From Blastomussa wellsi (lineage: Eukaryota; Cnidaria; Anthozoa; Scleractinia; Plerogyridae), in assembly GCA_947652115.1 (NCBI GenBank), contig OX393572.1:6088241-6152240 (forward strand): a stretch of 64,000 nt of DNA. The letters run 5' to 3'. Every line of letters begins with the position of its first letter. Within the stretch, counting starts at the first letter, position 1. Made by a program: the position numbers and the translations under genes. Shown here piece by piece: positions 8,213-40,643 of the stretch. The notes beneath the pieces were generated by a model. That model was not told the DNA's origin. It worked only from the letters and a program-made list of their open reading frames with translations, and made no database searches.

Positions 8213-8390
8213 ATATGCCACCCTCTCTAATAAACAACATCCCTCTAATAAGCCACCTCCCTCTAATAAGCCGTCTCTCTCAAAGAAGCCACCCCCTCTA
8301 ATAAGAGCCACCCTCCCTCTCCTCCCCTATCTAATAAGCCATCCTTCCTTCTAATTAGTCACCCCATCCCTTCCCCTCAGTAAAGATATG
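8213..8390 (+). repeat. 17-bp satellite, short form, unit A
   Basis: About eight irregular copies of CTCTAATAAGCCACC between the poly(A) region of gene 1 and the 67-nt exon of gene 0. Confidence 0.8.
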
Positions 8391-8451
8391 TCGGTTACAT
8401 CACATGGTTTATTTACTTTTTCGAGATCAGTTTGTAACGTGTTTATACATG

Positions 8452-8655: not shown

Positions 8656-11600
8656 CTGAAATATGCGCAATGCTCAGCACTATTCGGAGTCTAGCTCGCT
8701 GTTAAAACATTAGGCCACTACTGCCTGCTCTCTCCTTTTCTCCAGCACCTCTAGATATATGTATTTATTTAGCTTGGTGTGAGTTTGCGGCGCCTTAGAA
8801 AAGTGTCTATAAAGGTGCGATACTAAAACGATGTACCTGTATTTCCTGGCGCAGCTTTGGTATACCTATTAATGTGGAACGTATTCAAAGTTAACTTGTT
8901 ATCATTGTTTTCGTTCTACAAGGTTTTAATTATGTATGCAGCTATGTATAGGTAACCATACGGTTTTGAGTTCATTTTGGAATTAATTTGTACTTGTGAG
9001 TTTTTCAAAAATCTGAAATTGCACGCGAAAAACCGTATGATTGCATTATTTATAATAATAATATAAAAATGAAAAAATTCGCCTGGAGGAAGTGCCGGAA
9101 GATCTTTGTATTGCATACAGGAAGCGCGCATTTGACGCGGATTTGCCGATTTGCTGTTGAAGATCAGCTGATAATGCTTCGAACTGAAAGCGGCTCGTTA
9201 AAAACAATTGCAATTATAATCCAGAATTTCTATGTGTAATTTACACCGGTGTTACACGTTTTGCACTGGTGTTACACTTGAACTGCACTGCTCCCAACCA
9301 ATCAGAATCGAGCAATTTTTTCATGTATATTATTAAGATGCTTAAAACCACCGTGGAAAACTACGCAAAGATTTAATAAAGTAAAGCACTTTAAATTTCC
9401 GAATTTTGAGTCAGGGTTATTATAAAAGTGGTGGTCAAATTGTTAACTTACTTGCTGACGGTCTAGCTTGAGCCATGCTTTTACCAGTAAGTAATTTTCG
9501 CGAATGAACTGCAGTGTATTCCGCTAGCTGGAATCTGATGCGACCAAGTACTTCATTTACCTTTGTGACGTTAGTTAATGAGGTCATGTTTTTGCGTCAC
9601 ATTTATTGTTTCCACGATATCTCTTTAGGTTCTTTCATTCTTTCTAACTTTAACAAGTTTCACGTACGCATTTCTAAATGATTCCGAAAATTGTAAAGAG
9701 TACTTCGTTATTAAAATGCAATCGCTAAGACAAATGACGCCATAACTTTCAAAGCCTACCGCACGCCAAACTTAAACTTCAACTGCATGATCTACTGGAA
9801 AGAGTTTTTAGCACCAGAGGAAAGAGTTTCATTGCAACCAATAACTACCACACTTTCTGGACGAATGATAAGAAGTCGTCGAAATACAGTTACTTTTCTT
9901 GTAGAGAACTTTGCTGTGCTATTGACTTTCTTATCGACAACATCTACGTCCGTTTCGGAAACTCAGTTTTTCGGCAAGTTATTGGTATACCGATGGGCAC
10001 TAATAGTGCGCCGTTATTGGCTGATCTCTTTCTCCACACTTTCGAGTACGACTTCATGCTAAAAACTATGAAACAAGACATGTCAAAGGCCGCAACATTC
10101 AGCAATACCTTTCGCTATATCGACGATTTATTCAGCGTCAACAATGCGAATTTTGGAAATTTTATCCACGAAATTTACCCGTCAGAACTGGAACTGAAAA
10201 ACACTACCTTGGCTTCAAATGAAGTGTGTTATCTTGACATTAAGATCATTCAGGGAGACGACAACACACCTTGTCGAATAAGTGTCTACGACAAGAGAGA
10301 CGACTTCTCATTCCGGATTGTAAACTTTCCTCATATGGACAGCAACATCCCAGCCAATCCGGCCTATGGTGTTTACATATCTCAATTGGTGCGATATGCA
10401 AGAATTTGCTCATCCAAATTGGACTTTATAGACAGGCTTCGTGGTCTTTCTTCACGTCTTCGTCACCAAGGCTTCAACACTGCTGCGCTTCTCAAATCGT
10501 TTAATGGATTCTTCAAGCGCCACGGTGAGGTCATTCGCGTTAAATATGACATTGCACTTCGGGAGTTGAGATCAGCGGTTTGTGATTGAGAACCAACAAC
10601 GTATCCTTTGCTTGTTTGTAATTGTTACTTCGTCTTTGTAACTCTAATTCATTTATACGCGCTGCTTCCGGGTCCTTCATTTGGATTTGAAGGCGCGCGC
10701 GCGCATTTTCGTATGTGGTGCGCGTGTTTGGTTTATTTAGTTGACGTGTATGCTTAGTTCGCAATTTAACGGTTTAATTTATTTTTCGTTGTTTTCCTTA
10801 TTACTTTTTCTTGTCAGTAACTGTGCTCACATCGTGGGTGGCTCCACCTGAAATGTTCTGCAATTGGTATAGGATTTAATGGAGCCGAAACCAATTGTGG
10901 AATTACAAGCATTTTAGGCATCCTACTGATGAACGGTTATGGCAATTAGATATTTATTACAGGAGCCAACATTGAGATTGTGGTCTGTCGCCTTTGAAAT
11001 ACTTACCATGTTCGCTCGCGCGGGTGTGCGCGAGCAATAAGCGCGCGCCAAGATCGGGCGTTACAGTACCTTACTTTGAACTCAGACTCTCTCTCTTTTT
11101 CTTCACCAGTTACTGAGATCCGAACTGCGCCAAATTTTTCATCTTTTGGAATGAAACATTAGAAAAGTGAACAAGGAAATTGAAATAATAACCTAATTGA
11201 AATAAAAACCTAATTTAAAATATATATATATATTTCGGATTGAAATTTTCGAGTAGGGAAGGTCGCGCCATTTTTTAGCTAGCATCCGTAGCCGGCGGGA
11301 TTTGAGGGTGCGAGCTACACACTCAGCTATCGCGGGCGAAGCTCGTAAGGTCAACTCGACTCCGCACCAATCTCCCCACCGCTTTGTCGCTTTAATGACG
11401 GCCTCCCCAAAAACGAAAGCACTTCGCCGCGAACCCCTGCATAGTTGCAAATGACCATTAAATCTGACCAGTTGCATCACGAACTTAAAACTTGCATTCC
11501 TTCTACCGAAAAAAAAGGACATTACTCACCTAAAAGCTAAAGGCTTCGGATCGTCTTGAGAAGCGAGAAAAGATCAGATAACAACACGATAAAAAACAAC

Positions 11601-14600
11601 GAATTAATGAGAAAAGTTGATCTTATTTTTAGGAAAATTGGATTTGGTTTATTTATTGTTTGAGTCCATTTTCCCATTCAATCCCTTATAAATTCAGATT
11701 AAACCGTTGCAGGGGCGGGTCAAGGGGGAGGGTGAAAATTTTTAAGACTTGTAGGAAAAAGAAATCTTTGAATGGAGGGAACCACACAACTCAAAGTAAT
11801 AGGCAGTAGTTCTTGTTGTTGGCTATCTTTGTAGAGATGCTCGTACCACACGTCACTGTAACATGAGAATTATTAGAGAAAGCAATTAAAACTGCAAGGC
11901 TGCACTATTGCAAAGGACACTTCTAATGGGCCAGTATTTCGACTAGTACAACTATTCTTCTTCAGGGCTAGTGTTGCTACGAAAGAAAAAAGTTTGCCCT
12001 AGCCTCCCCTCTGCATACGCCTTTATCCCGCTTATCATCCTTGATCACGATGAAACACACGCCCCGAACAGAAGCATATACGAAGCATATCCGATGCATA
12101 TCTGCTTTAACTGCAGGTATCATAAAAGACAAATAAAAAATAAACAGTTGGATTATATTACATAACTTATTTGCAAATGAGATTGAAACCTCCTTATCTC
12201 GAAACCTTTGCTCAACACTTCAAAAATTAATAAATAAACATTTCAATTACATTAAACAGATTTAAATAAAGTACTTAATCGATAAATCAATAAACGGTTC
12301 AATTACGTTACATGACATTACATGTGTCTTTGCAAATAACATCAAGGCTCCTTACCTCCAAAGATTCGCTCGCGACTTCAAAAAAGTAAATACATCAATA
12401 AAATGTTCAATTAGGTTACACAGATTTTTTTGTCAAAAATGGTCGAAGCCTCCTTACTTCGAAAGGTTTACTCTCGACTTTAAATAAACAAATAAACATA
12501 CAGCTCAATTATATTAAACAATTTTGCTGAAGCCTTCTTACCTCGAACGGTTTGCTCAAGATTTCAAAAAATAATAAACAGTTAATAAACAGTTCAATTA
12601 TATTACACAGATTTTTCGCAATTATGTAATATAATTGAACCGTTTATTAACTGATTAATAAACAGTTCAATTGTATTACATATCTTTCGAAGGCTCCTTA
12701 CCTCGAAAGCTTTACCCATGTATTCCAAAAAACAAGGATACACGGTCAATATTTGTTGAGCAACAAATATTGTGATTGGGATTGAACAAATGTTGAACCG
12801 TGTATCATGTGATGTTGTATGTTAAAATATGCCATTCAGCAAGTTGAACTTTCTTGAACGTTGTTGAACGAAAATAGAGCTTGGTTCAGTCTATTCCGTT
12901 CAACAAGTTGCCGGTTGTTGAACGACTTCAAAAACGCAAAAGTTTCAACAATGTTGCAACGATGTTCAAATTCTGTTGATCAACAAAAGTTGAAAGATGT
13001 TGAATCGCGTATAAAATGCTCTGAATCGCGTATAAAATGCTCTGATCTTCTGATCTTCCTACGGGACCATTCCGTTCAAGACTGACGAGCTGAGGATACA
13101 AGAAATAGCATAATAAGACAGTGAAGGAGATTTTAACTGTCCGTAAAGGCAGGACGTTTTACAGGGTTACAAGGACATGTTACAGCAGCAGTCAATTGAA
13201 AACCGTTGTGATTACTTTACTTTTGGTTTTCCGAAATTCAAAAGAAAATGGCGTTTGGAGAGTAAAACTTGCATGCGTTCATACGTCTTCCTGTGAAATG
13301 ATTTCTCATTAATTGCGTTACCTTCATCGTCGGCAGAGAACCAATCAGATTGCAGGATTCGTTACCATGCCCTCTTGTTGAATAAAGTGATTTATTCCGG
13401 CGGTGGATAGCGTTATCAAATCTTTAGCAACCGGCCTGTTTGTGAGTTGGCAGATAGGATAATAGGCAGATAGGAAAATTCGCACAACAAACTCATGCTG
13501 CAGGATTCGTTACCATGCCCTCTTGGAAAAAAGAAAGTGATTAATCCGGTGAATATCGAATGCTTGCCATTTACATGGAATTTTCTATGAAAAATTTTCA
13601 ACAAATGGAACAGTTCAATTTTTTATCACGTAAACGGGACGAAAAAGAAGCTGTTCCTTTCAAAAATTCCACCTCGAAAACCACCTCCAGAGCCTGCTCA
13701 CCAAAAAACATGGCGATCGAAGGCGAAACTTTATTTTACGTCCTTAAGAAGCCTTGGAGAAAGTTAAAGAGAAAAAAGTCTCGCTGCTTGAGAAAAAACA
13801 CCCTCTTTCTACACTCGACGGGTATTATGGATTAATTTGAATCAATTCAACGGGTAAATTTTAGCGTTCTTTGATTTAGTGTTCGACCTCGCTCTGTAAA
13901 CGAACAGGCCGTTAGTATCATATGAAACACAAATCAGGGCCCTGCATAGCGGGCGGCAGAGGAGGCCAGGAAAACTAAATGGTTTGTTTTTTTTTTTCTA
14001 ACATAATGTTTGATTTTGCTGGGCTATTTCTTGTAGGAAGTGAAGCTGTGAGGAGGTTGCCCCCGCGGATAAAAATTCCCAGGTTCGGCCCTGAAAATTT
14101 CCTGTACACCGTACAACCGGTGTTTGCATACAAATCTGAAGAACCCATCTTTTGCAAAGCTAAAGCCGTGCGATTTTTACCGCGCTTTGATAATCACGCG
14201 TCTAACTGAAAAATGAGCACTATTCCGAGTCCATCGAGCTGTTAAAACATTAGGCCACTTTTACTTTTTCTCTCCTTTTCCTCAACGTCTCCACATACAT
14301 GTCTGTATTGCCTGGTGTGAATAAGAGGTGCCTAAAAAGTCTTTATAAAAGTAAAATACTAAACTGAATTGAAGTACCTGTATTTCCTGTCGAAGATCTC
14401 GAATACCTAGCTATTAAACAGGTATACCAAAGCTTCGACAGGAAGTACAAGTTAACTTTTTCCCATTGAATTAGATCTACAGACTATTAAGTGATGTTTA
14501 AGAAGGCGCTAATAACAACCGTAGAAAACTTCAGCTTTTTTTTCTTTTCGTCTGTTTTCGTTCCTCCAATAAGTTACTTTTACAAGAGTCAGGGAAAACC

Positions 14601-17600
14601 AGTCTTTTTTTCTTTTAATGTGTCCCTCTCTTAGCTACAGGTTCCAGATATGTTTCAAGAAGCTCAGTGAGATTCGCTTTTTCCCATTGTCACTGAGCTG
14701 CACTGTATTGCTTCACTGTATAACCAGAGAATATAAATTATTATGGTATTCTTTTGAGAATGCTAGAAAAATTGAATTTCATCTCTTTGCCTAAGAATGA
14801 AATATTATTTTAATCAAAAGTGAAATAAAATTTCTATTTTTTTTTTCTAGACATGGCTCGCACGTTGTAGAGCCATCTACACGAAACTAGGGCACCGTTT
14901 TTCTATAAAATAATTTATTTTAATTTCTCCCGGGAAAAACATTTCCCTTCCTGGCAAAATGAAAAACCCCGGGATTTTTTTGGGCGGTCATTTGAATAAG
15001 GACAAGTTAGGCCCCTATACCTAAGGATTTTTCATATTTGCCCTCTCGGATTCATTCACACACCCACTGGAATCACGCAACAACACTTTGTTTAAAATAA
15101 TCTTTATTCATAAACATAAATACTATAAATCAGTAGTCAAAGATAAAATTCTCAAAACATTACAAATGTCCTTTCTTAAAATTAAAGCCTCAAAATACCA
15201 CGAAAGGTTCGCTCACGAGTTCAAAAATACAAATAAATAAATAAACAATTTAATTATATAACTCATTTTTTATAAAAAAGATCGAAGCCTCCTTACCTCG
15301 AAAGGTTCGCTCACGACTTCAAAAATACAAATAAATAATTAAGAAATAAAAAAAAAATCAATTATATAACATAATTTTTTACAAAGAGATCAAAGCCTCC
15401 TTACCTCGAAAGGTTCGCTCACGACTTCAAAAATACAAATAAATAATTAAGAAATAAAAAAAAATTATATAACATATTTTTTTACAAAGAGAACGAAGCC
15501 TCCTTACCTCGAAAGGTTCGCTCACGACTTCAAAACTACGATAAATAATTAAGAAATAAAAAAATAATTATATAACAGATCGAAGCCTCCTTACCTCGAA
15601 AGGTTCGCTCACGACTTCAAAAATACAATAAATAATTTAAGAAATAAAAAAAGTTATGTAACATAATTTTTTACAAAGAGATCGAAGCCTCCTTACCTCG
15701 AAAGGTTCGCTCACGACTTCAAAAAATACAATTGAAAATTAAATGAGTATTAAAATTATATTACATTTTTTTTGTTTTCATAGTTAAAAATATATACATC
15801 AATAACGTTTTTAGAAAAAGTTAAAAATGAGTCACTGCCGTCGAAAAATTCGACGAAAAAAATTTGTGATCTTCCTCCCCTTCGAGGGACGTTTTCGTTC
15901 AATTTCAAGAAAGGCGAGCTGAGGAGAAAGAGAAATGACATAATAAGCCGTCGAAAGAGATTATAACTGTCCGTAAAGACGAGGACATGTTACAGGGTTA
16001 AAATGGCATCATGTAGCGGGAACATGGTGCAAGACCCCGGCATGGTGTACACTGAGCAACCAGGGCATGTCCCTGGGCTAAATTGCTATAGTGCCTGTGT
16101 ATGTTGTGATCCGGTCGCGTGTATCATGGGATGGTCTGAAGGTAAGTGGGCTGAACTTCGGATCGGAGGTACGGGTTCGAACCCTGAAACTCTATTTGTT
16201 CTTGTGCAAGACACTTCAACTCTAACTTATAATGCCTCTCTCCACCCAGGTGTATAAACAGGTACGGGAGAATTCAATGCTGTGGGGTAACCTAGCAACC
16301 CATCCGGGGGAGTAGAAATACTCCTAGCCGCTTCATAGTAAGCAATCCAGCCGAGGATAACCTTCAGTCTTTTGGACCACTTTAATTATCATATCTCCGA
16401 AATTCAGCCGTGCTACATTGCTCTGCTAAATGCTCTCTTATCTTATCCAATTATTTCGTTAGGTAAAACTTCTCGGTATACTCACACGAATGTTTAGTTC
16501 ATCGCACGTCTGAGTTATATCAACAATCTCGCTGCAAGAAAACCACAAATGCCGAGTAAATTATAAAACAACATGCATATGAATCTAGCCTGAGAGAGTC
16601 CATGATCTGTTTGCCATAAAAAAGGATAGATCTGTATAGAACGCTTTCGTTTGTCGTCTTAGCTACAGTCATCCTGGAGTTAAAAAACATGAAATAGCGG
16701 CCATATTATATTGGGGTACCAAGTTTGTTCTCCAAGAACTGAATGTACAGTATCGTCTGTTACGTTAATAAACCAATAAGTGCTACTGGTCAAGTGAGTG
16801 AAAGCGCTATATAGAGAAACACTGTCCGCTCGCTTTGGAGTAGTCTAGATATACACCCCTCTGCAACAGACCCACTGAAACCCTACCCAGTGAATTATTT
16901 TCCCCTATCCAGCGGAAATGTAGTGCCCCCAGTACCTAGTGAATATTTTGATTTTACCCGGTGACTGTGCGGTGTGACCCAGCATATTTTGTTTGCAAAA
17001 AATAATAATAAATGAGCAAAATAAAACAGAAAACGAGCGGACCCAGTGGGAAATTAGCCAACCCGGTGACTGTTTTCCCGAAAACCCAGTGAAGATAAAG
17101 ATTCCACTTGGTCTGTTACAGAGGGGTCTGGATATGGTGTGACTTGTTTACACATATTTTCCTAAAACTATTACTATATTTTGTACTTACTTCTCTTTGT
17201 CGTTAAGAGCCATTTTCATCTGAAAGAAATTAAATTATGGAATGTTATCGAGAAAGTAACACTATTTGCTTGCTTTCTATGCGATTGATAATTATGTCAA
17301 TTATCAGAAGCCTATCATTACAGGCTTCGCTAATTATATATACAGAAGCTTTAAAATTAGCCCGGTGAACCACAATTTTTTTCATGCTACGATGCAATTC
17401 GCCATTTTCGCATTTCTAAATAACAAACCTGGCTTGCTCCCCAAAATTTTTTTTCCTATTTCCTCTGGGCATTACAGACGTCTCAAGAGAATTTACTGAA
17501 AACAATGCGTATGCAAAATTTTGAGGAGCAAACAAGGTGTATTATGGGAAATTCGAAAATTCCGAATTGTATGCAACGTTAAAAAAATGAGAATTGCTTT

Positions 17601-20600
17601 AAGAGCCACCTTAAATTTTCAAAGATTTAACATTAAGGCTGCTGTTAACACATTATGCCGCTGCTATGGTAATCAATAATTTCAAGAAAATAATCACAAC
17701 TGTGATTGGGCATTTGTTTGCCTGACGCCATTATTGCCCAATGACCCATCAAATTAAAAGAGAGGGAATGTGCTGGAAACTGCTGTGAGCCACCTTAAAT
17801 GCGATTGAGGCTTATCTTTAAGATTTTTCCTTTCGATTGTCTTCTTATGGGAGATGAAAATCAAAATGAAAGTTTAACAACTATGCATTTCGTTTTACAG
17901 ACAATATGTCCGTTTACAAGGTTGTGCAAAGTTTGTATCTGATTTCCAACATAGGCGTCGCCCCATCCGACAACACTAACACTTCGCTGGTTACTGAATC
18001 ATTATCGGGCTTTTGTGTTAATTCATCCTTACCTCAAGACGATAAATGGCGAAATCCCGATTCACTTTATCTGTTAACCTGGAATCGAATCGAACTTTTC
18101 CAGTTGAGAACTATATTAAATATAATCATCTCACTCATGGGCAGTCTCTTTTTCACAGAGCTCCATTCACTTCAGGTCGTGTCGCAGTGAAAGACACGCA
18201 AAGTCGCCAACTTTGCAGTGACCAGACTGACTAATGTAACTTTCCAGTTGAATGTAAGGTAATTATTGTCAACGTAAGATAATTATTGTCAACGTCAAAT
18301 CAATTTTACCTCTTGAGGTCACGATTTTCACACGCCATCTGTATAAAATGAGAATATTTAAAAATGATATTTCATTAGCACATTTTATTGCGATAGCTAT
18401 TTGGAAGAAACATATTTCATTCTTCCTACAGAATAAAAAAACAGAAAACGGCTTTTCAGGAAAGTGCACGTAACAAGAATATTACATGTTTAATCACGAG
18501 CGGCAAATTCTGTAAATTATGTATCACTTACTTCCTCTTCTTTTTCTTTCCCTTCTTTCTTCAGCTCTTCTATTTCCCTAAAATTTAGGAATTTAAAAAG
18601 CAGCTTAGCTGATTGATTAATTGATGGAGAAACCAATTTCTTCTTTGACATAAGGGTGTGTTCCTTTGGGATGGTCTAGATCACAATCAGTGATCCGAGA
18701 TTTCTCGGATCATGGTGTAGCAAAGGCGCCGGTGAATCCACTCTGGGCAAGCCGGAATTCGCCGGTTCCTTTGATGTACAATGATCTGAGTGATCTCGGA
18801 TCACTGATCCTGACCCTGATCACCCCAAAGGAACGCACTCTAAGATTTTCCCGGATCAGTGTAAGTAGGCGGGAGGGGTGGGAGGTTTCGTCACGCAGAG
18901 CTCTATTCACTCTAGGTCGTGTCGCAGTGAAAGACACGGAAAGTCCCCAACCTAACAGTGATCAGACTGGTCAACTAAAATATAATTTTTACCTCTTGAG
19001 GTCACGATTTTCATCCTCCATCTGCATAAAATGAAAATATTAAAAAATAGTATTTCATTAGTACTTTTGTTTCGATAGCTATTTGGAAGAAACACATTTC
19101 CCTCTTCCGAAAAAATTATATATGTCAAGGTAACAAGAGTGAAAAGATTCCAACATTGGATTTGAGATGGCAGAAAGGAAAAAGGCTTTTCAGGTAAGCA
19201 AACGTAACAATTGTAATAGATGTTTATTTACGAGCGGTAAATTCGGAAAATTATCAATCACTTACTGCCTCTTCTTTTTCTTTCCTTTCTTTCTTGAGCT
19301 CTTCTATTTCCCTAAAATTTAGGAAATCAAAATTCAAAAAGCAGCTTAGCTGATTGATTAATTGATGGAAAGACTAACTTTTTATTTACTTACTTAGATT
19401 TAACCGACTCATTGTAAGACTGACTCACTGTCTCTCTGCTTGACTAAAGAATAACAGACAGACAGACAGACAGACAGACTGACTGACTGACTGACTGACT
19501 AACTGGCTGACTGACTGACTGACTGACTGACTGACTGACTCACAGGCTGACTGACTAACTGACTGACTGACTGACTGACTGACTAACTGACTGACTGACT
19601 GACTGACTGACTGACTGATCAACTGACTAACTGACTGACTGACTGACTGACTGACTAACAGGCTGACTGACTGAGTGACTGACTGACTGACTGACTAACT
19701 GACTAACTGACTGACTGACTGACTGACTGACTGACTAACAGGCTGACTGACTGACTGACTGACTGACTGACTGATCAACTGACTGACTGACTGACTGACT
19801 GGCAGACTGACTGACTGACTGACTGACTACATGAATGGCATATCGCCGCTTTGTTTATTTGCTCCATCGTTCCTTTATTCCATTTTTACATTTATTATGA
19901 TATTTATTCATCGGTTACGTCGTATACTGAAACAAGTTTGTTTGGTCGGTGTTGGGCAATAGTGGCCTTGTTGTCTTCTTGTGTTAATGATTCCGTGTCG
20001 CCTCAATTATTAAGGCGGAAATGCTGAACGTAACCATTCAGTCGTGTTTAAAATAATTTCTCTTGTTTGTATTCAGTTATTGCCTGAAGCAAATTGACTA
20101 TAACAATGATCGTAATTTACCTCTGGAGGTCAAGATTTTCATCCAACATCTGCATAAAATGAGAATATTATTAAAAAATAGTATTTCATTAGCACATTTT
20201 ATTTCGATAGCTATTTGGAAGATTCACATTTCTTTTTCCCACAAAATATTAATGTCTGTAAAGGTAATAAGGTGCCAAGATTGGATTTGAGATTGAAAAA
20301 ATGAAAAAGTCTTTTGAGGAAAGTATATGTAACAAGAGTAAAACATGTTTAATCACGAGCGGCAAATTCTGTAAATTATGTATCACTTACTGCCTCTTCT
20401 GTTTCTTTCCCTTCTTTCTTCAACTCTTCTATTTTCCTGAAATTTAAAAAGTAAAAATTCAAAACCAGCTTAGCTGATAAAATGATGAAGAGACTCATTT
20501 CTTCCTTTACTTACTCAGATCTGTCCGACTCAGTGTCAGACTGACTGTCTGTGTGCCTGTCTGACCGGCTAGTGGCTGACTTAATGACTGACAGAAAGAC

Positions 20601-23600
20601 AGACTGTCTGACTGTCTAAGTGATTAACGGACTCTATGATAGTCTGAAAAACTGAATGACTAGCAAACTGACTGATTTACTGACTTTAATACTGACTGAC
20701 CGGATGACGGACTGACCGGCTGACCGATAGGGAGATCGACTGACTGACTGCCTGACTAACTAATAATATTAATTTATTCATCCGCGAGGTCATATACTAA
20801 AACAAGTTTGTTCGGCCGGTGTTGGAAAATAGTGGCTACGTTATCCTTTCACGTCAATGCCAGCGTATCGTCTCAATTGGGCGATAAACATCCAAAAAGG
20901 AAGTCGCCAATGATTAAAGAGGAAGTACTGAAGGTAACCATCCATTCTTATCTAAAATAAGCAGCATATTTTGCAGTAAGATCGTTAATAAAGATCATAG
21001 CTTACCTTTTGAGGTCACGATTTTGATCCGCCATCTGCATAAAAGGGGAATATCAAACAATAGTATTTTATTAGCGCAATTTAAGAAGAACATTTCTTTT
21101 TCCGACAAAATAATGTATGTGAAGGATATAAATTAGATTCCAAGATTGGATTTGAGATTAAAAAAATGAAAAAGTCTTTTGAGGAAAGTATACGTAACAA
21201 GAGTAAAACATGTTTAATCACGAGCGGCAAATTCTGTAAATTATGTATCACTTACTTCCTCTTCTTTTTCTTTCCCTTCTTTCTTCAGCTCTTCTACTTC
21301 CCTGAAATTTAGAAAGTCAAAATTCAAGCAGTTTAGCTGATTGATTTTTTAATGAGACTATTTCCGACTCATTGTCAGAATGACTGACCGTCTGTTTGCC
21401 TGCCTGTCTGACCGGCTAGTGGCTGACTGACTTACTGACTGGCAGACTACAGACAGACGGACTGAATAAATGACTGACTGACTGGCTGGCTGAAAGACTG
21501 ATGACTGACTGACTGACTGGCTGACTTACTGACGGTCTGACAGAAAGACTAACTGACTGAGTGAGTGACTAGCTGAATGACTGATCGCTCCTTTGTTGAT
21601 TTGCTCCATCGTTCATTTATTCGATGTTTAAATTTATTATAATATTTAATTATTCGTATACTGAAAAAAGTTTGTTCGGTCGGTGCTGGGAAATAGAGGC
21701 CTTTTTATCTCTTTACGTTATCTTGTTACGTTTTTTTTCTGTTTGTTTTTTATTTTCATTAACAACACTTATTACATTACAGTTTACAATATTCTACAAA
21801 TCTTTTTTTTAATTATTCAGTCTTATTTAAAATAATTGTTCTGACTTGTTTGTAATCAGCCTTGTTGTCTGCAGTAAAATAGTGTTATTAAAGATCATAG
21901 TTTACCTCTTGAGGTCGCGGTTTTGATCCGCCATCTGCATAAAATGAGAATGTTAAAAAAAGTATCTCATCAGTACATTTTATTTTGATAACTATTTAGA
22001 AGAAACGCATTTCCCTTTCCGACATAATAATGTACATGAAGGTAATAAGATTCCAGGATCGGATTTGAGATTACAAAAGACTTTTCAGGAAAGTACACGT
22101 AACAAGAATAATACATGTTTAATCACGAGCGGTCCGGCCTCAAGAGTCCACGTGGGCCCGAAGAGGATAAATAAAATAAATAATAATCACGAGCGGCAAA
22201 TTCTGAAAATTATCAATCACTTACTGCCTCTTCTTTTTCTTTGCTTTCTTTCTTTAATTCTTCCGCTTTTCTGAAATATAGGAATCAAAAATTAACAAAA
22301 GCAGCTTAGCTGATTGATTAATTGATAAGGAGACTGGTTTCTTCTTTGAATTACAATTTGAATAACTTGTGTCAGACTGCCTGATTGTCGCTCTGTCCAT
22401 CTCACTGGCTAGTGACTGACTGACTGACTGAATGTCTGAATGACTGAGTGACTGACTAACAGACAGACTGACTGACTGACTGACTGACTGATAGACTAAC
22501 TGACTGACTGACTGACAGACAGACTGAGTGACTGACTGACTGATAGACTGACTGACTGACTGACTCAAACGATTTCCCTCAATCGAGAAACATTGAGGCG
22601 GAAGGAACCAATTCAGTAGTATTTGAAATAATTTTTTTTGTTTGTAATCAGTTAATGTCAGCAGTAAATTCATGATATCAATGATCATAATTTACCTGTT
22701 GAGGTCACGATTTTCATCCTTCATCTGCATAAAATGAGAATTATGTTAAACAAATAGTATCTCATTAGCACATGTTATTTCGATAGCTTTTTGTAAAAAA
22801 CGTTAACACGTTTCTTTTTCCCAAAAACTAATGTACGTGACGTGAAGTGTAATAAATAAGATTCCAAGATTGGATTTGAGATGTCAAAAATGAAAAAGGC
22901 TTTTCTGGAATGTACACGTAACAAGAATAATACATGTTTAACCACGAGCGGTAAATTGTGTAAATTATGTATCACTTACTGCCTCTTCCTTTTCTTTTCC
23001 TTCTTTCTTTAAATCTGCCACTTCTCTGAAATTTATGAAGCAAAAAATAGCAAAATCAGCTTAGCTGATCTGTTAATTACTAAAAGGACCGATTTAATCT
23101 TTTACTTACAATTTGACCTTCTTAGTGTCAGACTGTCTGTCTGTCTGTCTGACTGTCTGTCTATCCATGACGGCATCATTCTGGCTCACTGAATTATAGA
23201 CGGAGTCACTGCCTGACTGATTGACTTTTTGTCAGACTGACGGACTAATTGTTTGACTGATTGACTAACTCACAAACTGACTGACTGTCTAGCTGTATGG
23301 TCGATCGCCCTTTGTTTATTTTCTCCATCGTTCATTCATTCTATTTTTATATTTATTATAAATTATATTCATTTAACATCATACATATTGAAAAGGGAAA
23401 ACGTCATTAGCATATATTTACTTTCTACACACATTTACAGTTTGTCGTAGCGTATGTAAATGTGTGTAGAAAGTAAACGCTAATGAGATTAATTTTTTTC
23501 TTTTCAGTATGATGTTAAGTAATACTTTCCTAGCTTCGGCAAACAGAATTTCGCAAAAATATTTATTTATTCATCCGTTAATTTGGTCATACACTGAAAG

Positions 23601-25162
23601 AAGTTTGTTCAGTCGGTGTTGGGAAACAGTTGTCCTGTTATCTTTCTCCGTTACTAATAACGTGTCTCCTCAATCGATAAACAACCAAAAAGGATATCGC
23701 CAACTGAATGACGGCGCTTGTTATCTCTCTGATGTAACATTCATGTCACCTTTAAAATGTCAGTTCTTATTTGCAATGATTCATTGTCTGCAGTAAATTA
23801 GTTATATCAATGATCACAATTTACCTCTTTAAGTTTCCAATCTCTTCTACCATCTGCGTAATTGTATAAAATAAAACTTGATTAACACATGTCTTTCATA
23901 GCTGTTTTCTCTTATGACCTCTTATGAGAAGGTTCGTGAAAGTAATCAAGATTCTAATCTGGATTTTAAGATGGAAAGAGCACACAAAACAATTTATTGC
24001 AAAGAAGTCATAAGGGTTTTACAGCTACAGAAGTCATTGGAATGCTTTTAAAAACCGAAAACTATCCCGGTGATAAGTCTTTTCGAGTTGAAAACTCATT
24101 TCCGTCACAGTCCCAGCTGAGAATCTTCGTACTTTCTCGTACATTAGATTTCTTCCAAATAGCTGCAGTGCGGGCTAATTGTCCACTCGTTTGCCAAATC
24201 ATTCTACGCAACATGTTGCAGTCTGTGGCCTGTCCCTTCACCAAGGAAATACGGAAAGCAGCAAAACTCTAGCACAAAAATTTATTTTTCAAATCGGCAC
24301 TCTTAATCCTCACGGTATCATCGAACGCTTTTCATTCAACTAATTTATTCCGTTGTTTTCACGTTACCAGGCGCCAGCCAATAGCGAAGCTCCATCTTTC
24401 TGTATATAAAAAACACACGACCCACAATTCCTTGATTCGCTCCGACGAAGGGCAAACGCTAGAAACGTCAGCTCTTGAATCTCTTTACGGTGGCCAATTC
24501 ACATTATCAACCCAGTTGATAAAACCAAATTTTATAGTAACTGACTGACTGACGGACTAACGGACTGATCGTGACTAACTGACTGACATGCTATTAAACT
24601 GACTTCCTGACTGACTGCCTGAGTCTATCGTTACTTAACATATATCGCAGGATATCTGTCAAGTACAGATGGCAGAAAACAGTCGCTTCATGACCATACA
24701 TGGGTAACGGAACAAATGTTTGGATAATAAAGCGCTAATTTCTAGTCCCAAAAATGACCTAATGTTGACTGATGACAGGCGAAATAAATACCGATGAACG
24801 TTTGTGATTTCGGAAATGCTCAAAAACTCGTCGAAGGCCTTGAAGCCATACCCGGTAAAGCCTGCGAACAGGCTACTGTCTCGGAGGGGCGCTATTTTTC
24901 AGTCCGCAGGCTATACCCTGACTAGCAAGGACGAATCTTTACCCTTTCTAGCACACACTTGCTTGAATTTTACACCCTGTTCAGCTCTGTGTAGCTCAAA
25001 TAAGGGATTACCTGAGGGAGTGATAATTTTGCGGGATGTGCTAGATTATTTCGCAATCTTTCTTTTAAGTATTGTGATCGATATCTTTGCCTTACTTTTG
25101 CTTGGTTGGCTAATTCTGCTCTTAAAGCTTCTATATTCTGATGGTCCTTCTTTCGCTTTTCA
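8452..25162 (-). CDS. Gene 1: micro-exon coiled-coil protein with C-terminal membrane anchor
   Basis: Most complete copy. Exons: 25096-25162 (67 nt), 23825-23853, 22980-23025, 22696-22724, 22225-22270, 21906-21934, 21256-21301, 21006-21034, 20391-20436, 20121-20149, 19266-19311, 18993-19021, 18532-18577, 18310-18338, 18033-18078, 17191-17219, 16486-16531, and the terminal exon 8452-8655. All micro-exons are 29 or 46 nt with canonical splice sites. Phases run 0 to 2 to 0 throughout, and the frame enters the terminal exon in phase 0. Joined, they give about 289 codons: a 22-residue charged segment (starts EKRKKDHQNIEALRAEL), eight 25-residue repeats, then a membrane segment. Hydrophobic positions 1, 5, 8, 12, 15, 19 and 22 of each repeat keep 3-4 spacing with one stutter per repeat, as in a continuous coiled coil. 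The 5' end upstream of 25,162 is not found. Joining 16,486 to 8,655 needs a 7.8 kb intron and is inferred. Confidence 0.75.
8837..8865 (-). CDS. Candidate 29-nt exon, 3' region of unit A (E1)
   Basis: AATAG acceptor, then VYQSCARKYR over 29 nt, then CAG|GTACAT donor. Counterparts: 28126-28154 (B), 44964-44992 (A', VYRSFARKYR), 63520-63548 (B', VYKSFARKYR). The length and phase match the 29-nt class, but the partner exon downstream (about 8720-8770, reading LEVLEKRREQA) does not join cleanly in frame. Use in mature transcripts is uncertain. Confidence 0.45.
8905..9345. repeat. Interspersed repeat of unknown class, unit A
   Basis: About 440 bp containing ACCGTATGATTGCATT, CACCGGTGTTACACG and CCAACCAATCAGAATC. 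It is conserved at 28190-28650, 45030-45470 and 63590-64000. It has an open minus frame (LPALPPGEFFHF) without recognisable domain. Probably a non-coding mobile element fixed before the array formed. Confidence 0.4.
9754..10999 (+). mobile_element. Unit-A-specific retroelement insertion, about 1.25 kb
   Basis: Units A', B and B' (where visible) read straight through ctttcaaatacttacc. In A the same site is split by 1,246 bp flanked by CTTTCAAA (9746-9753) and CTTTGAAA (10992-10999), an 8-bp duplication with one mismatch. The insert carries the reverse transcriptase fragment and about 400 bp of 3' sequence including a GCGCGCGCGC run. It sits inside the intron just after the CpG-rich candidate first exon, leaving its GTAAGT donor intact. 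Confidence 0.7.
9756..10589 (+). pseudogene. Penelope-like reverse transcriptase fragment
   Basis: Open for 277 codons from the left junction to TGA at 10587. Visible blocks: WTND near the start, FLIDNIYVRFG, the IGIPMGTNSAPLLADLF block, the catalytic FRYIDDLF (YIDD at 10116-10127), YLDIKI, and NIPANPAYGVYISQLVRYAR. This combination is typical of Penelope-like reverse transcriptases and unlike LTR or LINE enzymes. No GIY-YIG domain follows the stop, so it may belong to a clade with an N-terminal or missing endonuclease. The N-terminal part is truncated at the insertion point. Confidence 0.7.
11007..11065 (-). promoter_or_regulatory. CpG-rich candidate first exon, ATG directly before a donor
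   Basis: On the minus strand, a CpG-dense hairpin-like stretch ends GCGAACATG followed by GTAAGTATTT, a near-perfect 5' splice site. Copies occur at 29,072 onward (B) and 45,888 onward (A'). The CG density contrasts with the AT-rich surroundings. It could be the 5' end of a short transcript using E1 and the anchor exon, or part of an interspersed repeat. No transcription evidence can be read from sequence alone. Confidence 0.3.
11259..11460 (-). repeat. Interspersed repeat with short open frame, unit A
   Basis: The minus frame reads AFVFGEAVIKATKRWGDWCG and ASPAIAECVARTLKSRR. The GC content is higher than its surroundings. Copies at 29330-29520 and 46135-46330 keep the frame. I do not recognise a protein domain and think it is part of a repeated element. 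Confidence 0.4.
11520..12180. other. Intronic or spacer sequence without recognised features
   Basis: Conserved in A, B and A' at single-copy level. It contains GCGAAAAGATCAG-like and AT-rich stretches. I see no exon pair, domain or repeat array here. Confidence 0.3.
12185..12725 (-). repeat. Diverged copy of the ~112-bp array, unit A
   Basis: Five units with the same core diverged, for example TCGCGAGCGAATCTTTGGAG|GTAAGG and TCGAGAGTAAACCTTTCGAA|GTAAGG. It is an older paralogue of 15190-15735. The two arrays are followed by related sequence (about 13,030-13,170 and 15,870-15,990), showing a ~3 kb internal duplication. Also at 30255-30865 and 47065-47605. Confidence 0.65.
12738..13013. mobile_element. 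TTGAAC-rich foldback MITE, unit A
   Basis: Ends ATACACGG and CGCGTAT with partly complementary TTCAACA-rich interiors. The body repeats GTTGAAC and TGTTGAAC motifs. The paralogous sequence at about 15,830 lacks it, giving an empty site. Copies at 30992-31269 (B) and about 47621-47896 (A'). Confidence 0.5.
13320..14150. other. Long intron, no confident exon
   Basis: Contains a duplicated segment GCAGGATTCGTTACCATG (about 13,352 and 13,500) and several short open frames on both strands that are not conserved as codons between A and B. Nothing else is supported. Confidence 0.3.
14265..14311 (-). other. Candidate 47-nt exon after E2
   Basis: Lies between a CACACCAG acceptor and a GTAAAAG donor. 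It is also present at 32593-32639 in unit B. One frame reads MYVETLRKRREK, resembling the coiled-coil exons. The length is 47, not 46, so it does not preserve frame after a 29-nt exon. Together with a stop-containing homologue of the anchor exon at about 14,150-14,215, this looks like a decayed partial duplicate of the gene's 3' end. Confidence 0.35.
14378..14406 (-). CDS. Candidate 29-nt exon with inverted second copy (E2)
   Basis: GCTAG acceptor, VFEIFDRKYR over 29 nt, CAG|GTACTT donor. Also at 32714-32742 (B) and 49260-49288 (A'). It could follow 16486-16531 in phase. Directly beside it on the plus strand (14,427-14,455) lies a related sequence reading VYQSFDRKYK, so the two form an inverted repeat with arms of about 25 bp. 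Possibly a decaying duplicate of E1. Confidence 0.4.
14460..15180. other. Long intron, no confident exon
   Basis: AT-rich, similar in A, B (32,790-33,520) and A'. There are short poly-T runs and no open frame of note. Confidence 0.3.
15190..15735 (-). repeat. ~112-bp tandem array with splice-donor-like core, unit A
   Basis: About six copies. The minus strand of each carries GAAGTCGTGAGCGAACC then TTTCGAG|GTAAGGAGG, identical in nearly every copy, separated by AT-rich spacer. Similar arrays lie at 33530-34165 (B) and 50060-50610 (A'). The core resembles a 20-nt exon with AAG acceptor and strong donor, but 20 nt would shift frame if several were joined. Confidence 0.75.
16117..16390 (+). mobile_element. 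tRNA-derived SINE, unit A
   Basis: The head carries a tRNA-like B box (GGTTCGAACCC at about 16,174) and an A-box-like TGGTCTGAAGG. The body has CACCCAGGTGTATAAACAGG, GGGGTAACC and GAGTAGAAATACTCCTAG, a body type I associate with cnidarian SINEs. It is shared by A, B and A', so the insertion predates the A/B split. Confidence 0.65.
16852..17126. mobile_element. MITE with 8-bp target duplication, unit A
   Basis: Inverted ends CCCCTCTGCAACAGACC and GGTCTGTTACAGAGGGG. Flanks are TCTAGATA (16844-16851) and TCTGGATA (17127-17134). Unit B has the uninterrupted site near 35,555. The 8-bp duplication suggests a non-autonomous hAT-like element. It is also present in A' at about 51,730-52,004. Confidence 0.55.
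17428..17536. repeat. Short palindromic element, unit A
   Basis: Arms CCTGGCTTGCTCCCCAAAAT and its near-complement ending GAGCAAACAAGG. It lies in sequence that unit B lacks at the equivalent place. Also in A' at about 52,306-52,414. Confidence 0.35.
18651..18844. mobile_element. GATC-rich foldback MITE, unit B
   Basis: Same element and site as 952-1146, so the insertion predates the A/B divergence. Confidence 0.55.
19395..19835. repeat. (GACT)n array, unit B
   Basis: Long, rather pure tetranucleotide array in the intron between exons 20121-20149 and 19266-19311. Confidence 0.9.
20530..23300. repeat. Dispersed short (GACT)n blocks, unit B introns
   Basis: Blocks at 20530-20760, 21370-21590, 22370-22570 and 23125-23300, one per exon pair. 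Unit B' equivalents are 55385-55625, 56240-56465, 57250-57450 and 58005-58170. Confidence 0.8.
24187..24533 (+). mobile_element. Penelope-like 3'-end remnant in unit B
   Basis: Present in B and B' (about 59,061-59,407), absent from A and A'. One frame reads FQIGTLNPHG, like the end of Penelope-like endonuclease domains. It is followed by CCGACGAAGGG...GAAACGTC, a motif related to the one at 6582-6620. The end is TTGATAAAACCAAATTTTA. No intact reading frame. Boundaries are approximate. Confidence 0.5.
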
Positions 25163-25208
25163 CTGTAAAATACAAAAAAGGAAAATATATATATGAAAAA
25201 GAATTGCC

Positions 25209-25359
25209 AGGGGGGGAAGGCTTGGGGGGGGGGGGGGGGGCTGCAGCCCTCCCAAATTTTGGGCAAAATGAAAAAATTTGGGCAAGGCAACTTGGGAGAA
25301 TTTTTTGGGCAAATGGAACATCGCCCCCCTGGAAAAAAATTGCCCATACGCCTATGGCC
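25209..25359. mobile_element. G-rich short insertion beside the 67-nt exon, unit B
   Basis: About 150 bp, absent from A and A'. It contains a run of 17 G followed by CTGCAGCCCTCCC, and ends CCCCCCTGG...CGCCTATGG. It looks like a short interspersed element. It also occurs in B' at about 60078-60227, with a shorter G run. Confidence 0.45.
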
Positions 25360-25479
25360 AATAATAATTAATGATAATTCTTAATTATTTTTACCAAGAT
25401 TTTAAATGCTCTTTTTAGTGCCGTTGCTTGACAAACGTGTGAAACAATAGAACAGAAAACTTTCTAAACCACTGCCTCT

Positions 25480-27400
25480 TATAATCCAACCCCTCTAATA
25501 CGCCACCCCCTCTAATAAGCCACCCCGTCTAATAAGCCACCCCCTATAATAAGCCACCCCGTCTAATAAGCCACCCCCTATAATAAGCCACCCCCTCTAA
25601 TAAGCCACCCCGTCTAATAAGCCACCCCCTATAATAAGCCACCCCGTCTAATAAGCCACCCCCTATAATAAGCTACCCCCTATAATAAGCCACCCCGTCT
25701 AATAAGCCACCCCCTCTAATAAGCCACCCCCCCATCTCTATTACGCAACCCCTTCTAATAAGCCACCCCCTCTAATAAGCTGCCCCCTATAATAAGCCAC
25801 CCCCTCTAATAAGCCACCCCCCTCTAATAAGCCACCCCCTCTAATAAGCCACCCCCCTCTAATAAGCCACCCCCTCTAATAAGCTGCCCCCTATAATAAG
25901 CCACCCCCTCTAATAAACCACCCCCCTCTAATAAGCCACCCCCCTCTAATAAGCCACCCCCTCTAATAAGCTGCCCCCTATAATAAGCCACCCCCTCTAA
26001 TAAGCCACCCCCCTCTAATAAGCCACCCCCTCTATTACGCAACCCCTTCTACTAAGCCACCCCCTCTAATAAGCTGCCCCCTATAATAAGCCACCCCCTC
26101 TAATAAGCCACCCCCCTCTAATAAGCCACCCCCTCTAATAAGCTGCCCCCTATAATAAGCCACCCCCTCTAATAAACCACCCCCCTCTAATAAGCCACCC
26201 CCCTCTAATAAGCCACCCCCTCTAATAAGCTGCCCCCTATAATAAGCCACCCCCTCTAATAAGCCACCCCCCTCTAATAAGCTACCCCCTCTAATAAGCC
26301 ACCCCCTCTAATAAGCCACCCCCCTCTAATAAGCCACCCCCTCTAATAAGCTGCCCCCTATAATAAGCCACCCCCTCTAATAAGCCACCCCCCTCTAATA
26401 AGCCACCCCCTCTAATAAGCTGCCCCCTATAATAAGCCACCCCCTCTAATAAACCACCCCCCTCTAATAAGCCACCCCCCTCTAATAAGCCACCCCCTCT
26501 AATAAGCTGCCCCCTATAATAAGCCACCCCCTCTAATAAGCCACCCCCCTCTAATAAGCTACCCCCTCTAATAAGCCACCCCCTCTAATAAGCCACCCCC
26601 CTCTAATAAGCCACCCCCTCTAATAAGCCACCCCCCTCTAATAAGCCACCCCCTCTAATAAGCTGCCCCCTATAATAAGCCATCCCCTCTAATAAGCCAC
26701 CCCCCTCTAATAAGCCACCCCCTCTAATAAGCTGCCCCCTCTAATAAGCCACCCCCTCTAATAAACCACCCCCTCTAATAAGCCACCCCCTCAAATAAGC
26801 CAACCCCCTCTAATAGGCCACTCCCTCTAATAAGCCACCCCCCTCTAATAGGCCACTCCCTCTAATAAGCCACCCCCCTCTAATAGGCCACTGCCTCTAA
26901 TAAGTCACCTCCCTCTAATAAGCCACCCCCTCTAATAAGCAACCCCCCTCTAGTAAGCCACCCCCTCAAATGAGCCAACCCCCTCTTATAGGCCACTCCC
27001 TCTAATAAGCCACCCCCCTCTAATAGGACACTCCCTCTAATAAGCCACCCCCCTCTAATAGGCCACTCCCTCTAATAAGCCAACCCCCTCTAATAGGCCA
27101 CTCCCTCTAATAAGCCACCTCCCTCTAATAAGCCACCCCCTCTAATAAGCCACCCCCCTCTAATAAGCCACCCCCTCTAATAAGCCACCCCCTATAATAG
27201 GCCACCCCCCTCTAATAAGCCACCTCCCTCTAATAAGCCACCCCCTCTAATAAGCCACCCCCCTCTAATAAGCCACCCCCTCTAATAAGCCACCCCCTCT
27301 AACAAGCCACCCCCCTCTAATAAGCCACCCCCCTCTAGTAAGCCACCCCCTCAAAAAAGCCACCTTCCTCTAATAAGCCATCTGGCCTTCTAATCAGCCA
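25480..27400 (+). repeat. 17-bp satellite, expanded, unit B
   Basis: Roughly 1.9 kb of 16-18-bp units around TCTAATAAGCCACCCCC. Variants include CTGCCCC, CTATAATAAG and GGCCACTCC. They recur in ordered blocks, for example the same series repeats around 25,800-26,530, so larger segments have been duplicated. The minus strand stays open as glycine/leucine-rich GGGLLEG repeats, an artefact of unit length. It fills the spacer between genes 1 and 2. Confidence 0.9.
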
Positions 27401-27485
27401 CCCATCCCTTCCCCTTCAGAAAAAAATACCCTCCATGTCACTTACATAATATAGTTTATTTGCTTTTTTGAGATTTTTGAGTTCG

Positions 27486-27680
27486 GATTGGTGGTCTATT
27501 TAACGTCTTACACGAATATTGATAATCACTTACTCTGCGTATCTCACAACATTGCCAATGTGAGCGTCTTTTCTCTTAATAACTGACCTCAGTGACTAAA
27601 GGAAAAACAAGATCAACAATAGTAATGAGATAGTTCCACCCATCAAGATTTTTTACGCGCTTTGGTAATTACGGGTCTAA
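27486..27680 (-). pseudogene. Disrupted anchor exon of gene 2
   Basis: It aligns to the anchor exon of units A and A', keeping the acceptor, the SYQEKRR-like 3' part and the poly(A) signal region. The start reads Leu-Asp-Pro-stop, and the region equivalent to the hydrophobic run is out of frame or interrupted. The gene copies ending here lack a membrane segment unless another acceptor is used. Confidence 0.6.
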
Positions 27681-30600
27681 CTGAAATATGCGTAGCGCTC
27701 AACACTATTCCGAGTAAAGCGTGCTGTTCTGTCCATTTCCTTATCACGTTCAGATACATGTTTTTATGTAAACACACAAAATTGTTAGTCAACGTTTTCC
27801 CTAAGGAATAACAAGTGCCATATTTAATTGTAGAGGCCAGGCGTTTCGGGCACAGCCGTTCAGTGGATGTCCGTTGATTTCAGTGATTCCACTGATGAAG
27901 GGCTATGTCCGAAATGTCTGGCCTCTACAGTTAAATATGTCACTTTCTATTCCTTTGGGAAATCGTTGACTAACAATTTTTTGTGTACTAGTACAAGTGT
28001 CACGCAGCTCGCAGATTTTTCTACGCCAATTTCTTATGTTTTTATTTAGCCTGGTGTGAGTTAACGGCGCCTTAAAAAATTTAAGTATCTATAAATGTAC
28101 TGTAGGAAACTATAAAACGAAGTACCTGTATTTCCTGGCGCAGCTTTGGTATACCTATTAATGTGGAACGTATTCAAAGTTAACTTGTTATCATTGTTTT
28201 AGTTCTACAAGGTTTTAATTATGTATTATGTATGTATGTTTTAATTATGTATGTAGCTATGTATAGGTAACCATACGGTTTTGAGTTCATTTTGGAATTA
28301 ATTTGTGCTTGTGAGTTTTTCAAAAATCTGAAATTGCAAGAGAAAAACCGTATGATTATATTATTTATAATAATAATATAAAAATGAAAAAATTCGCCTG
28401 GAGGAAGTGCCGGAAGATCTTTGTATTGCATACAGGAAGCGCGCATTTGACGCGGATTTGCTGTTGCAGATCGATCAGCTGATAATGCTTCGAACTGAAA
28501 GCGGCTCGTTAAAAACAATTGCCATTATAATCCAGAATTTCTATGTGTAATTTACACCGGTGTTACACGTTTTGCACTGGTGTTACACTTGAACTGCACT
28601 GCTCCCAACCAATCAGAATCGAGCAATTTTCTCATGTATATTATTAAGGTGCTTAAAACCACCGTGGAAAACTACGCAAAGATTTAATAAAGTAAAGCAC
28701 TTTAAATTTCCGAATTTTGAGTCAGGGTTATTATAAAAGTGGTGGTCAAATTGCTAACTTACTTGCTGACGGTCTAGCTTGAGCCATGCTTTTACCAATA
28801 AGTAATTTTCGCGAATGAACTGCAGTGTATTCTGCTAGCTGCAATCTGATGCGACCAAGTACTTCATTTACCTTTGTGACGTTAGTTAATGACGTCATGT
28901 TTTTGCGTCACATTTATTGTTTCCACGATATCTCTTTAGGTTCTTCCATTCTTTCTAACTTTAACAAGTTTCACTTACGCATTTCTAAATGATTCCGAAA
29001 ATTGTGAAGAGTACTTCGTTATTAAGATGCAATCGCTGAGACAAATGACGCCATAACTTTCAAATACTTACCATGTTCGCTCGCGCGGGTGTGCGCGAGC
29101 AATAAGCGCGCGCCAAGATCGGGCGTTACAGTATCTTACTTTGAACCCAGACTCTCTCTCTCTTTTTCTTCGCCAGTTCCTCGGGACTGGTACTGAGATC
29201 AGAACTGCGCCAAATGTTTCATCTTTTGGAATGAAACACTAGAAAAGTGAACAAGGAAATTGAAATAATAACCTAATTGAAATAAAAACCTAATTTTCAA
29301 AAAAATATATTTCTAATTGAAGTTTTCGAGTAGGGAAGGTCGCGCCATCTTTTAGCTAGCATCCGTAGCCGGCGGGATTTGAGGGTGCGAGCTACACACT
29401 CAGCTATCGCGGGCGAAGCTCGTAAGGTCATCTCGACTCCGCACCAATCTCCCCACCGCTTTGTCGCTTTAATGACGGCCTCCCCAAAAACGAAAGCACT
29501 TCGCCGCGAAACCCGCATAGTTTCAAATGACCATTAACCGAATTATACGTAATCTTACCAGTTGCATCACGAACTTAAAACTTGCACTCCTCCTACCGAA
29601 AAAAAGGACATTACTCACCTAAAAGCTAAAGGCTTCGGATCGTCTTGAGAAGCGAGAAAAGATCAGATAACAACACGATAAAAAAACAACGCATTAATGA
29701 GAAAAGTTGATCTTATTTTAAGGTAATTTGATTTTGTTTATATATTGTTTGACTCCATTTTTTCATTCAATACCTTATAAAGCGGGCGGGTCAAGGGGGA
29801 GGGTGAAAAGTTTTAAGACTTGTAAGAAAAAAATCTTTGAATGGAGGGAACCACACAACTCAATTAATAGGCAGTTGTTCTTGTTGTTGGCTATCTTTGT
29901 AGAGATGCTCGTACCACACGTCACTGTAACGTGAGAATTATTAGAGAAAACAATTAAAACTGCAAGGCTGCTCTATGGCAAAGGACACTTCTAATGGGCC
30001 AGTATTTCGACTAGTACAACTATTCTTCTTCAGGGCCAGTGTTGCTACGAAAGAAAAAAGTTTGCCCCAGCCTCCTCTCTGCATACGCCTTTATCCCGCT
30101 TATCATCCTTGATCACGATGAAACACACGCCCCGAACAGAAGCATACGGTATACAAAGCATATTCGAAGCATATCTGCTTTAACTGCAGGTATCATAAAA
30201 GACAAATAAAAAAATAAACAGTTGGATTATATTACATAACTTATTTGCAAATGAGATTGAAACCTCCTTATCTCGAAAGCTTTGCTCAAGACTTCAAAAA
30301 TTAATAAATAAACAGTTCAATTATATTAAACAGATTTAATCCAATTACTCAATTGTTGAATCAATAAACGGTTCAATTACGTTACATGACATTACATGTG
30401 TCTTTGCAAATAACATCAAGGCTCCTTACCTCCAAAGATTCGCTCACGACTTCAAAAAAGTAAATACATCAATAAAATGTTCAATTAGGTTACACAGATT
30501 TTTTTGTCAAAAATGGTCGAAGATTCCTTACTTCGAAAGGTTTACTCACGACTTTAAACAAACAAATAAACATACAGCTCAATTATATTACACAATTTTG

Positions 30601-40612: not shown

Positions 40613-40643
<31 letters not shown>

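Follow-up and report, generated by a model that had tools for sequence, protein, structure and literature searches.

Short blocks of exactly 29 or 46 nt, each preceded by AG and followed by GT, alternate on the minus strand of a 64,000-nt stretch of DNA from the coral Blastomussa wellsi (the window). This arrangement raises the question of whether the blocks are exons of a real gene and, if so, what follows from two exon lengths that keep the reading frame only as a pair.

Exons and gene models on the minus strand

We built two weight matrices from 13 exon bodies (seven of 29 nt and six of 46 nt), excluding the splice sites, and scanned the whole window in both orientations. The minus strand gave 51 matches, 28 of 29 nt and 23 of 46 nt, and the plus strand gave none. 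Every one of the 51 is preceded by AG and followed by GT, including all 38 that lie outside the training set. On this strand AG-N29-GT occurs at 212 places and AG-N46-GT at 280, against about 287 expected, so AG and GT at these spacings are no evidence when taken alone. The case for the array exons rests on four features taken together: homology, splice signal, phase and conservation.

Exon placement gave 75 exons in four tandem copies on the minus strand, with 20 exons in copy B, 20 in C, 19 in D and 16 in A. Thirty-one of the 75 are exactly 29 nt long and 30 exactly 46 nt; a check of the splice borders of all placed exons, leaving aside the first acceptor and the last donor, found AG and GT with zero exceptions. 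The scan and the placement together confirm the alternating blocks described in the original prediction. The invariant lengths that it reported are borne out in every placed array exon, but copy A is without one 46-nt exon, which has been deleted. The four gene models are as follows.

360-9476, minus strand: gene A, 5' part, 16 exons; cut by the left window edge, with the 3' end beyond the window
15832-28787, minus strand: gene B, complete, 20 exons
34300-45603, minus strand: gene C, complete, 20 exons, eight 29/46 pairs, 275 amino acids
50710-62997, minus strand: gene D, 19 exons, eight 29/46 pairs

Exon 1 of gene D was not found within the window, which ends at 64000. The feature had been assigned the extent 16486-25162. 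The array does lie inside this interval, but predicted gene B spans 28787 to 15832 and the window holds three more copies; position 25162 is the first base of the 67-nt exon that precedes the gene B array. The array itself runs on the minus strand from 23853 down to 16486 and alternates strictly between 29-nt and 46-nt exons, eight of each. The claim of strict alternation holds with one addition, a 46-nt exon at 18033-18078 that is dissimilar to the other 46-nt exons. The exons of gene B, with each 29/46 pair numbered as a unit, are listed below.

28763-28787, minus strand: exon 1, 25 nt; carries the start codon (MAQARPSA) and closes in phase 1, with a GTAAGT donor
27534-27582, minus strand: exon 2, 49 nt; phase 1 to 2, shared by the four copies
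25096-25162, minus strand: exon 3, 67 nt; phase 2 to 0, donor GTAAGG, in all four copies with 0-2 mismatches
23825-23853, minus strand: unit 1, 29-nt exon (MVEEIGNLKR)
22980-23025, minus strand: unit 1, 46-nt exon
22696-22724, minus strand: unit 2, 29-nt exon
22225-22270, minus strand: unit 2, 46-nt exon
21906-21934, minus strand: unit 3, 29-nt exon
21256-21301, minus strand: unit 3, 46-nt exon
21006-21034, minus strand: unit 4, 29-nt exon
20391-20436, minus strand: unit 4, 46-nt exon
20121-20149, minus strand: unit 5, 29-nt exon
19266-19311, minus strand: unit 5, 46-nt exon
18993-19021, minus strand: unit 6, 29-nt exon
18532-18577, minus strand: unit 6, 46-nt exon
18310-18338, minus strand: unit 7, 29-nt exon, the last consensus-like one
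18033-18078, minus strand: unit 7, 46-nt exon (LTDKVNRDFAIYRLE), from the phase-constrained search; in all four copies with 0-3 mismatches
17191-17219, minus strand: unit 8, diverged 29-nt exon (MKMALNDKEN); in B, C and D with 0-2 mismatches
16486-16531, minus strand: unit 8, diverged 46-nt exon (EIVDITQTCDELNIR); in B, C and D with 0-4 mismatches
15832-15918, minus strand: last exon, 87 nt including the stop (LAFLEIERKRPSKGRKITNFFRRIFRRQ*); in B, C and D with 0-1 mismatch

The sequence of exon 1 is identical in A (9452-9476) and C (45579-45603). For exon 2 we infer that the acceptor is the AG immediately before the 27534-27582 stretch, because the first AG after the pyrimidine tract gives stops in all four copies; an exon starting there was ruled out. 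The short donor of exon 3 occurs in all four copies. A longer exon 3 in B and D, ending at GTAATC, is kept only as an alternative, and the GTAATC donor is altered in A.

After 18310-18338, the next exon must have a length of 1 mod 3 for the reading frame to continue. We searched for it among open AG..GT stretches under the phase constraint, ranking them with a simple ad hoc splice score. The top rank went to a 46-nt stretch in both genes, 18033-18078 in B and its counterpart 36549-36594 in C. The second-ranked 46-nt candidate in C had no counterpart among the 14 candidates shown for B and was set aside.

With these choices B and C each splice 20 exons into one 828-nt open reading frame with a single terminal stop, encoding 275 residues. 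The layout in both is 25, 49 and 67 nt, then eight 29/46 pairs (8 x 25 residues), then 87 nt, and the sixteen 29- or 46-nt exons hold 600 of the 828 coding nucleotides.

Relations among the copies and signs of selection

The exons of B and C are 94.0% identical and equal in length in all 20 cases, whereas the introns are 78.7% identical over aligned columns and differ in length in all 19. The B-C comparison gave a dN/dS of 0.45 (Fisher p = 0.014, on rounded-down counts), and A-C gave 0.37, a value resting on 3 synonymous and 5 nonsynonymous changes. Among units 1-6 within a gene the pooled pN/pS was 0.33 in B and 0.30 in C, the compared pairs not being independent. Between B and D the units differ by 1 synonymous and 6 nonsynonymous changes, so selection is not evident for the newest copies.

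These counts bear on whether the copies are decaying, non-expressed paralogues whose intact frames are left over from recent duplication. Neutral simulations at the B-C number of changes kept the open reading frame in 728 of 5000 runs; retention is thus not improbable by itself, and an open frame alone is weak evidence. The missing 46-nt exon of copy A and the six-to-one ratio between B and D also fit decay. The three array-complete copies (B, C and D), however, all retain their 16 array exons, splice sites and frame, which together with the B-C ratio and its p value argues against decay and makes it, in our view, quite improbable. Judged from the sequence, the gene has the marks of spliced protein-coding genes: an open frame that continues across exons with AG and GT borders, and substitution of the coding type. 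The family is very probably a tandem set of predicted spliced protein-coding genes on the minus strand.

Copy A lacks about 60 bases relative to C, including the 46-nt exon of unit 5. Joining both 29-nt exons that flank the deletion leads to an immediate stop, and omitting one of them keeps the frame open across the visible part; A is therefore either damaged or one unit shorter. The deletion illustrates that single array exons cannot be freely lost.

Gene B with its downstream spacer (10992-27403) matches the region of D at 45873-62308 at 97.4% over 16.5 kb, at an offset of about 34.9 kb. Identity of this level is possible between coral haplotypes, and an assembly error that set the second haplotype of A-B in tandem as C-D would account for the match and leave only two real genes. 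On the other hand, the B-C spacer is colinear with the A-B spacer at about 89-93%, as in a true tandem array, and joining two haplotypes is not expected to create such a spacer. The A-C alignment pieces listed range from 89.7 to 99.0% identity, which is uneven for alleles. We consider a misplaced haplotype unlikely and retain four tandem copies.

The introns and spacers contain further repeats and reading frames. A minisatellite in intron 2, with a 17-bp unit and a double unit of about 35 bp (CCTCTAATAAGCCACCC), occupies 25475-27380 in B and 60343-62795 in D; neither A nor C had an array that came up to the score limit, though a few copies are visible in A at about 8.2-8.4 kb. Tetranucleotide arrays of TCAG/CTGA (4337-4810, 19457-19828, 22413-22565, 40524-41195, 54336-54679 and 57291-57447) sit inside the 29-to-46 introns of units 2 or 5. 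Downstream of the last exon, B (15196-15652), C (33611-34197) and D (50074-50530) carry tandem repeats of about 90-108 bp, each having a core that resembles GAACCTTTCGAGGTAAGGAGGCTTCGA. A diverged relative of the last exon lies at 31276-31369 on the minus strand, about 3 kb downstream of the last exon of gene C (74% over 107 aligned positions), and is possibly the remnant of a further gene end.

The A-B spacer carries a reverse transcriptase fragment at 9738-10589 on the plus strand, with 4497 relatives at E <= 0.001; among the best 120 of these, the named ones are from Porites lobata (74% and 65%) and Acropora palmata (71%). Its affinity may be Penelope-like. The other two spacers lack a block, at about 9754-10991, and the alignments on either side of it overlap there by 8 bases. 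This pattern suggests that the block was inserted recently and duplicated an 8-bp target. A GIY-YIG-like reading frame lies at 6106-6441 on the plus strand, in the gene A intron after exon 3 (Pfam E 0.0032, below the cut-off). Similar frames of 110 and 105 residues occur on the minus strand in the A-B spacer (11193-11525) and the C-D spacer (46091-46408), and related sequence is present in the B-C spacer near 29.3-29.6 kb. The frame at 11193-11525 had no Pfam match.

Frame and history of the 29/46 pairs

None of the 61 array exons is a multiple of three. The 29-nt exon leads from phase 0 to 2 and the 46-nt exon from 2 back to 0, so that neither is frame-neutral, while the pair makes up 75 nt and encodes a repeat of 25 residues, as the original prediction had it. 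We omitted runs of exons in silico from B and from C. In each gene, even runs kept the frame and the stop in 64 of 64 cases, and in 56 of 72 odd runs a stop appeared early, over 50 nt ahead of the last junction. The pair-frame claim is therefore correct as arithmetic.

Two extensions of this claim fared less well. Repeat number had been proposed to evolve in whole pairs, and this is not seen: the three countable copies (B, C and D) all have eight. The pairing had also been called a different scheme. Under Patthy's phase rule, modules are gained within phase-compatible exon sets; such sets are a general principle, so the scheme itself holds nothing new. What is unusual is that 29/46-nt pairs should build a helical rod.

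The frame lock might nevertheless be in use, with whole pairs skipped in a regulated or stochastic way, rods shortening by 25-residue steps and most odd skips being destroyed by way of an early stop. We regard this as decidedly doubtful. Were it true, each skipped pair would rotate the hydrophobic stripe by complete turns only, 7 for every unit, and the tandem genes would be a molecular ruler tunable by splicing, with error-proofing inherent in exon length.

The history of the array is recorded in its introns. Pieces of the introns in units 1-6 can still be aligned with one another (66-94% identity in the gene B rows listed), and successive unit copies are spaced 0.7-1.1 kb apart. By these alignments, units 1-6 are copies of genomic two-exon units with their introns, made by tandem duplication, so their equal lengths are largely inherited. 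We computed a tree of the six units from the 46-nt exon, the short intron and the next 29-nt exon; copy A contributes no unit 5, owing to its deletion. For each of the six units, the versions from different gene copies group together (supports 0.87-1.00), and the internal branches are short. The present order of the array therefore predates the gene duplication, and repeat number has not changed by whole pairs during these duplications.

The 3' end of the array differs. Against the consensus, the 46-nt exon of unit 7 (p 0.30) and both exons of unit 8 (29 nt and 46 nt, p 0.15 each) score no higher than shuffles, and at E 1e-6 introns 16-18 of B match none of the other B introns. Despite this dissimilarity the three exons measure exactly 46, 29 and 46 nt. 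The short tree branches and the alignable introns of units 1-6 are what would be seen if equal exon lengths were a mere by-product of tandem duplication, with no older or constrained 29/46 scheme behind them. This explanation does not account for exact lengths and phases in exons dissimilar to the rest, for the unmatched introns 16-18, or for the change in length of every B-C intron and of no exon, and we find it rather unlikely. From the exact lengths and phases of the dissimilar exons, the 29/46 scheme looks older than the tandem expansion of units 1-6, although a distant common origin with the other exons is not demonstrable by sequence. A module of two exons, the 29-nt one leading from phase 0 to 2 and the 46-nt one from 2 to 0, would already have existed in the form of the diverged 3' units; tandem duplication of a genomic unit of about 0.7-1.1 kb, comprising both exons and their introns, would then have brought the array to eight pairs, and whole-gene duplication would afterwards have given four copies.

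Predicted protein and comparison with known systems

The gene would be transcribed, and the transcript most likely spliced constitutively into a message for the 275-residue protein. This protein would have a short basic N-terminus, a helical rod of 8 x 25 residues rich in Glu and Lys, and a cationic amphipathic C-terminal tail. The repeat is about two-thirds charged (for example unit 3 of C, MADQNRDLKREVEELKKEGKEKEEA). In a scan of hydrophobicity periods from 3.40 to 3.75, units 1-6 peaked at 3.565 residues in B and 3.570 in C, about 25/7 (3.57) and inside the 3.5-3.64 range of a coiled-coil stripe. At the four helical periods compared, 32 of 1000 column shuffles reached the observed peak in B and 28 of 1000 in C.

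The rod would form a coiled coil with weak packing, in which the hydrophobic stripe recurs after 25 residues, or 7 turns; 25 residues can be read as three heptads plus four, which would place a stutter in each repeat. Polar residues (N, G, K) predominate at three of the seven core positions, so that the coiled coil may be marginal and its packing weak. The 25-residue length of the predicted coiled-coil repeat is upheld, and a 25/7 periodicity is present; pairing of the rod as a coiled coil is less secure, and the rod may instead be a charged single helix. The C-terminal KGRKITNFFRRIFRRQ has, on inspection, the look of a cationic amphipathic helix; that the tail anchors the protein to a membrane or an acidic partner is a guess, and a rather doubtful one. 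Units 7-8 and the two ends, which are unlike the repeat, may carry a specific binding function.

A search against 5.8 billion proteins, a set that does include some Porites and Acropora proteins, found no relative among 1730 word-sharing candidates (E <= 0.001) and 963 (E <= 10). Pfam gave nothing above the cut-off (best Cnn_1N with 26.7 bits against 28.5, and CCDC93_CC with 20.3 against 30), and all 8 NCBIfam rows were far under theirs; the matches below cut-off in both are helical families. At E <= 1 the PDB search returned 12 rows, the best with 8.7e-05; 3 carry the name designed helical repeat protein, 2 are laminin, and others look designed, judging by name. We set these matches aside as compositional. 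In viral and prokaryote contigs the peptide pattern matched 12 and 71 stretches, none of them confirmed, and a 26-base piece of the last exon had 0 matches in either, as expected for an animal gene. Rfam gave 0 matches at gathering level. The literature on paired asymmetric or coral micro-exons, as searched, held nothing that we recognised as this gene. The absence of protein relatives suggests that ordinary annotation may miss such genes; a narrow distribution would also explain it.

The locus had been compared with the micro-exon genes (MEGs) of schistosomes. MEG exons are 3-81 bp long and mostly multiples of three with few exceptions, and the proteins keep an N-terminal signal peptide (PMC10526429); the exons are mostly of 15 nt (PMC10526429, PMC4350168). 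The coral gene resembles MEGs, so described, in a coding region made mostly of tiny exons between much longer introns and in having several family members. Both of its array exon sizes are below the micro-exon limit of 51 nt given in PMC4317164. These likenesses, and the few MEG exons that are likewise not multiples of three (PMC10526429), could be taken to mean that the gene is a MEG in the schistosome sense, encoding a secreted variable protein diversified by skipping tiny symmetric exons. According to PMC10526429, however, MEG exons are mainly multiples of three, against 0 of 61 coral array exons, and MEG proteins have a signal peptide, whereas the predicted N-terminus MAQARPSAIIKRKDAH is, by inspection only, free of a hydrophobic signal-like stretch. 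The coral exons are thus short, as in MEGs, but asymmetric in 61 of 61 cases, at 29 or 46 nt. Because symmetry fails and no signal peptide is evident by inspection, we do not class the coral gene as a MEG, and membership in that class seems extremely improbable. The comparison survives as an analogy.

Other systems share single features with the coral array. Fibronectin type III and split sushi modules are made from two phase-compatible exons, and are globular with about 60-90 residues. In these modules as in the coral array, a single exon shifts the frame, the pair does not, and modules multiply pairwise; the coral module differs in being a 25-residue helical repeat from 29 + 46 nt. Coiled coils with stutters include arrangements in which 25 residues make 7 turns, as three heptads plus a stutter. 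The coral repeat likewise has 25 residues in 7 turns, but its stutter would recur once per exon pair and its core is partly polar.

The exons of titin PEVK are each in frame alone, and many repeat proteins grow through copying exons that individually keep frame. The coral repeat, unlike titin PEVK, needs two exons. The two have in common a highly repetitive charged region, many small exons and growth by tandem duplication (PMC6469411 for titin). The coral array is the stricter case, a minimal module of two micro-exons of which neither half can be skipped alone in frame, and it would offer a clean natural system for the recognition of 29-nt exons in long arrays and for the way in which exon phase limits repeat evolution.
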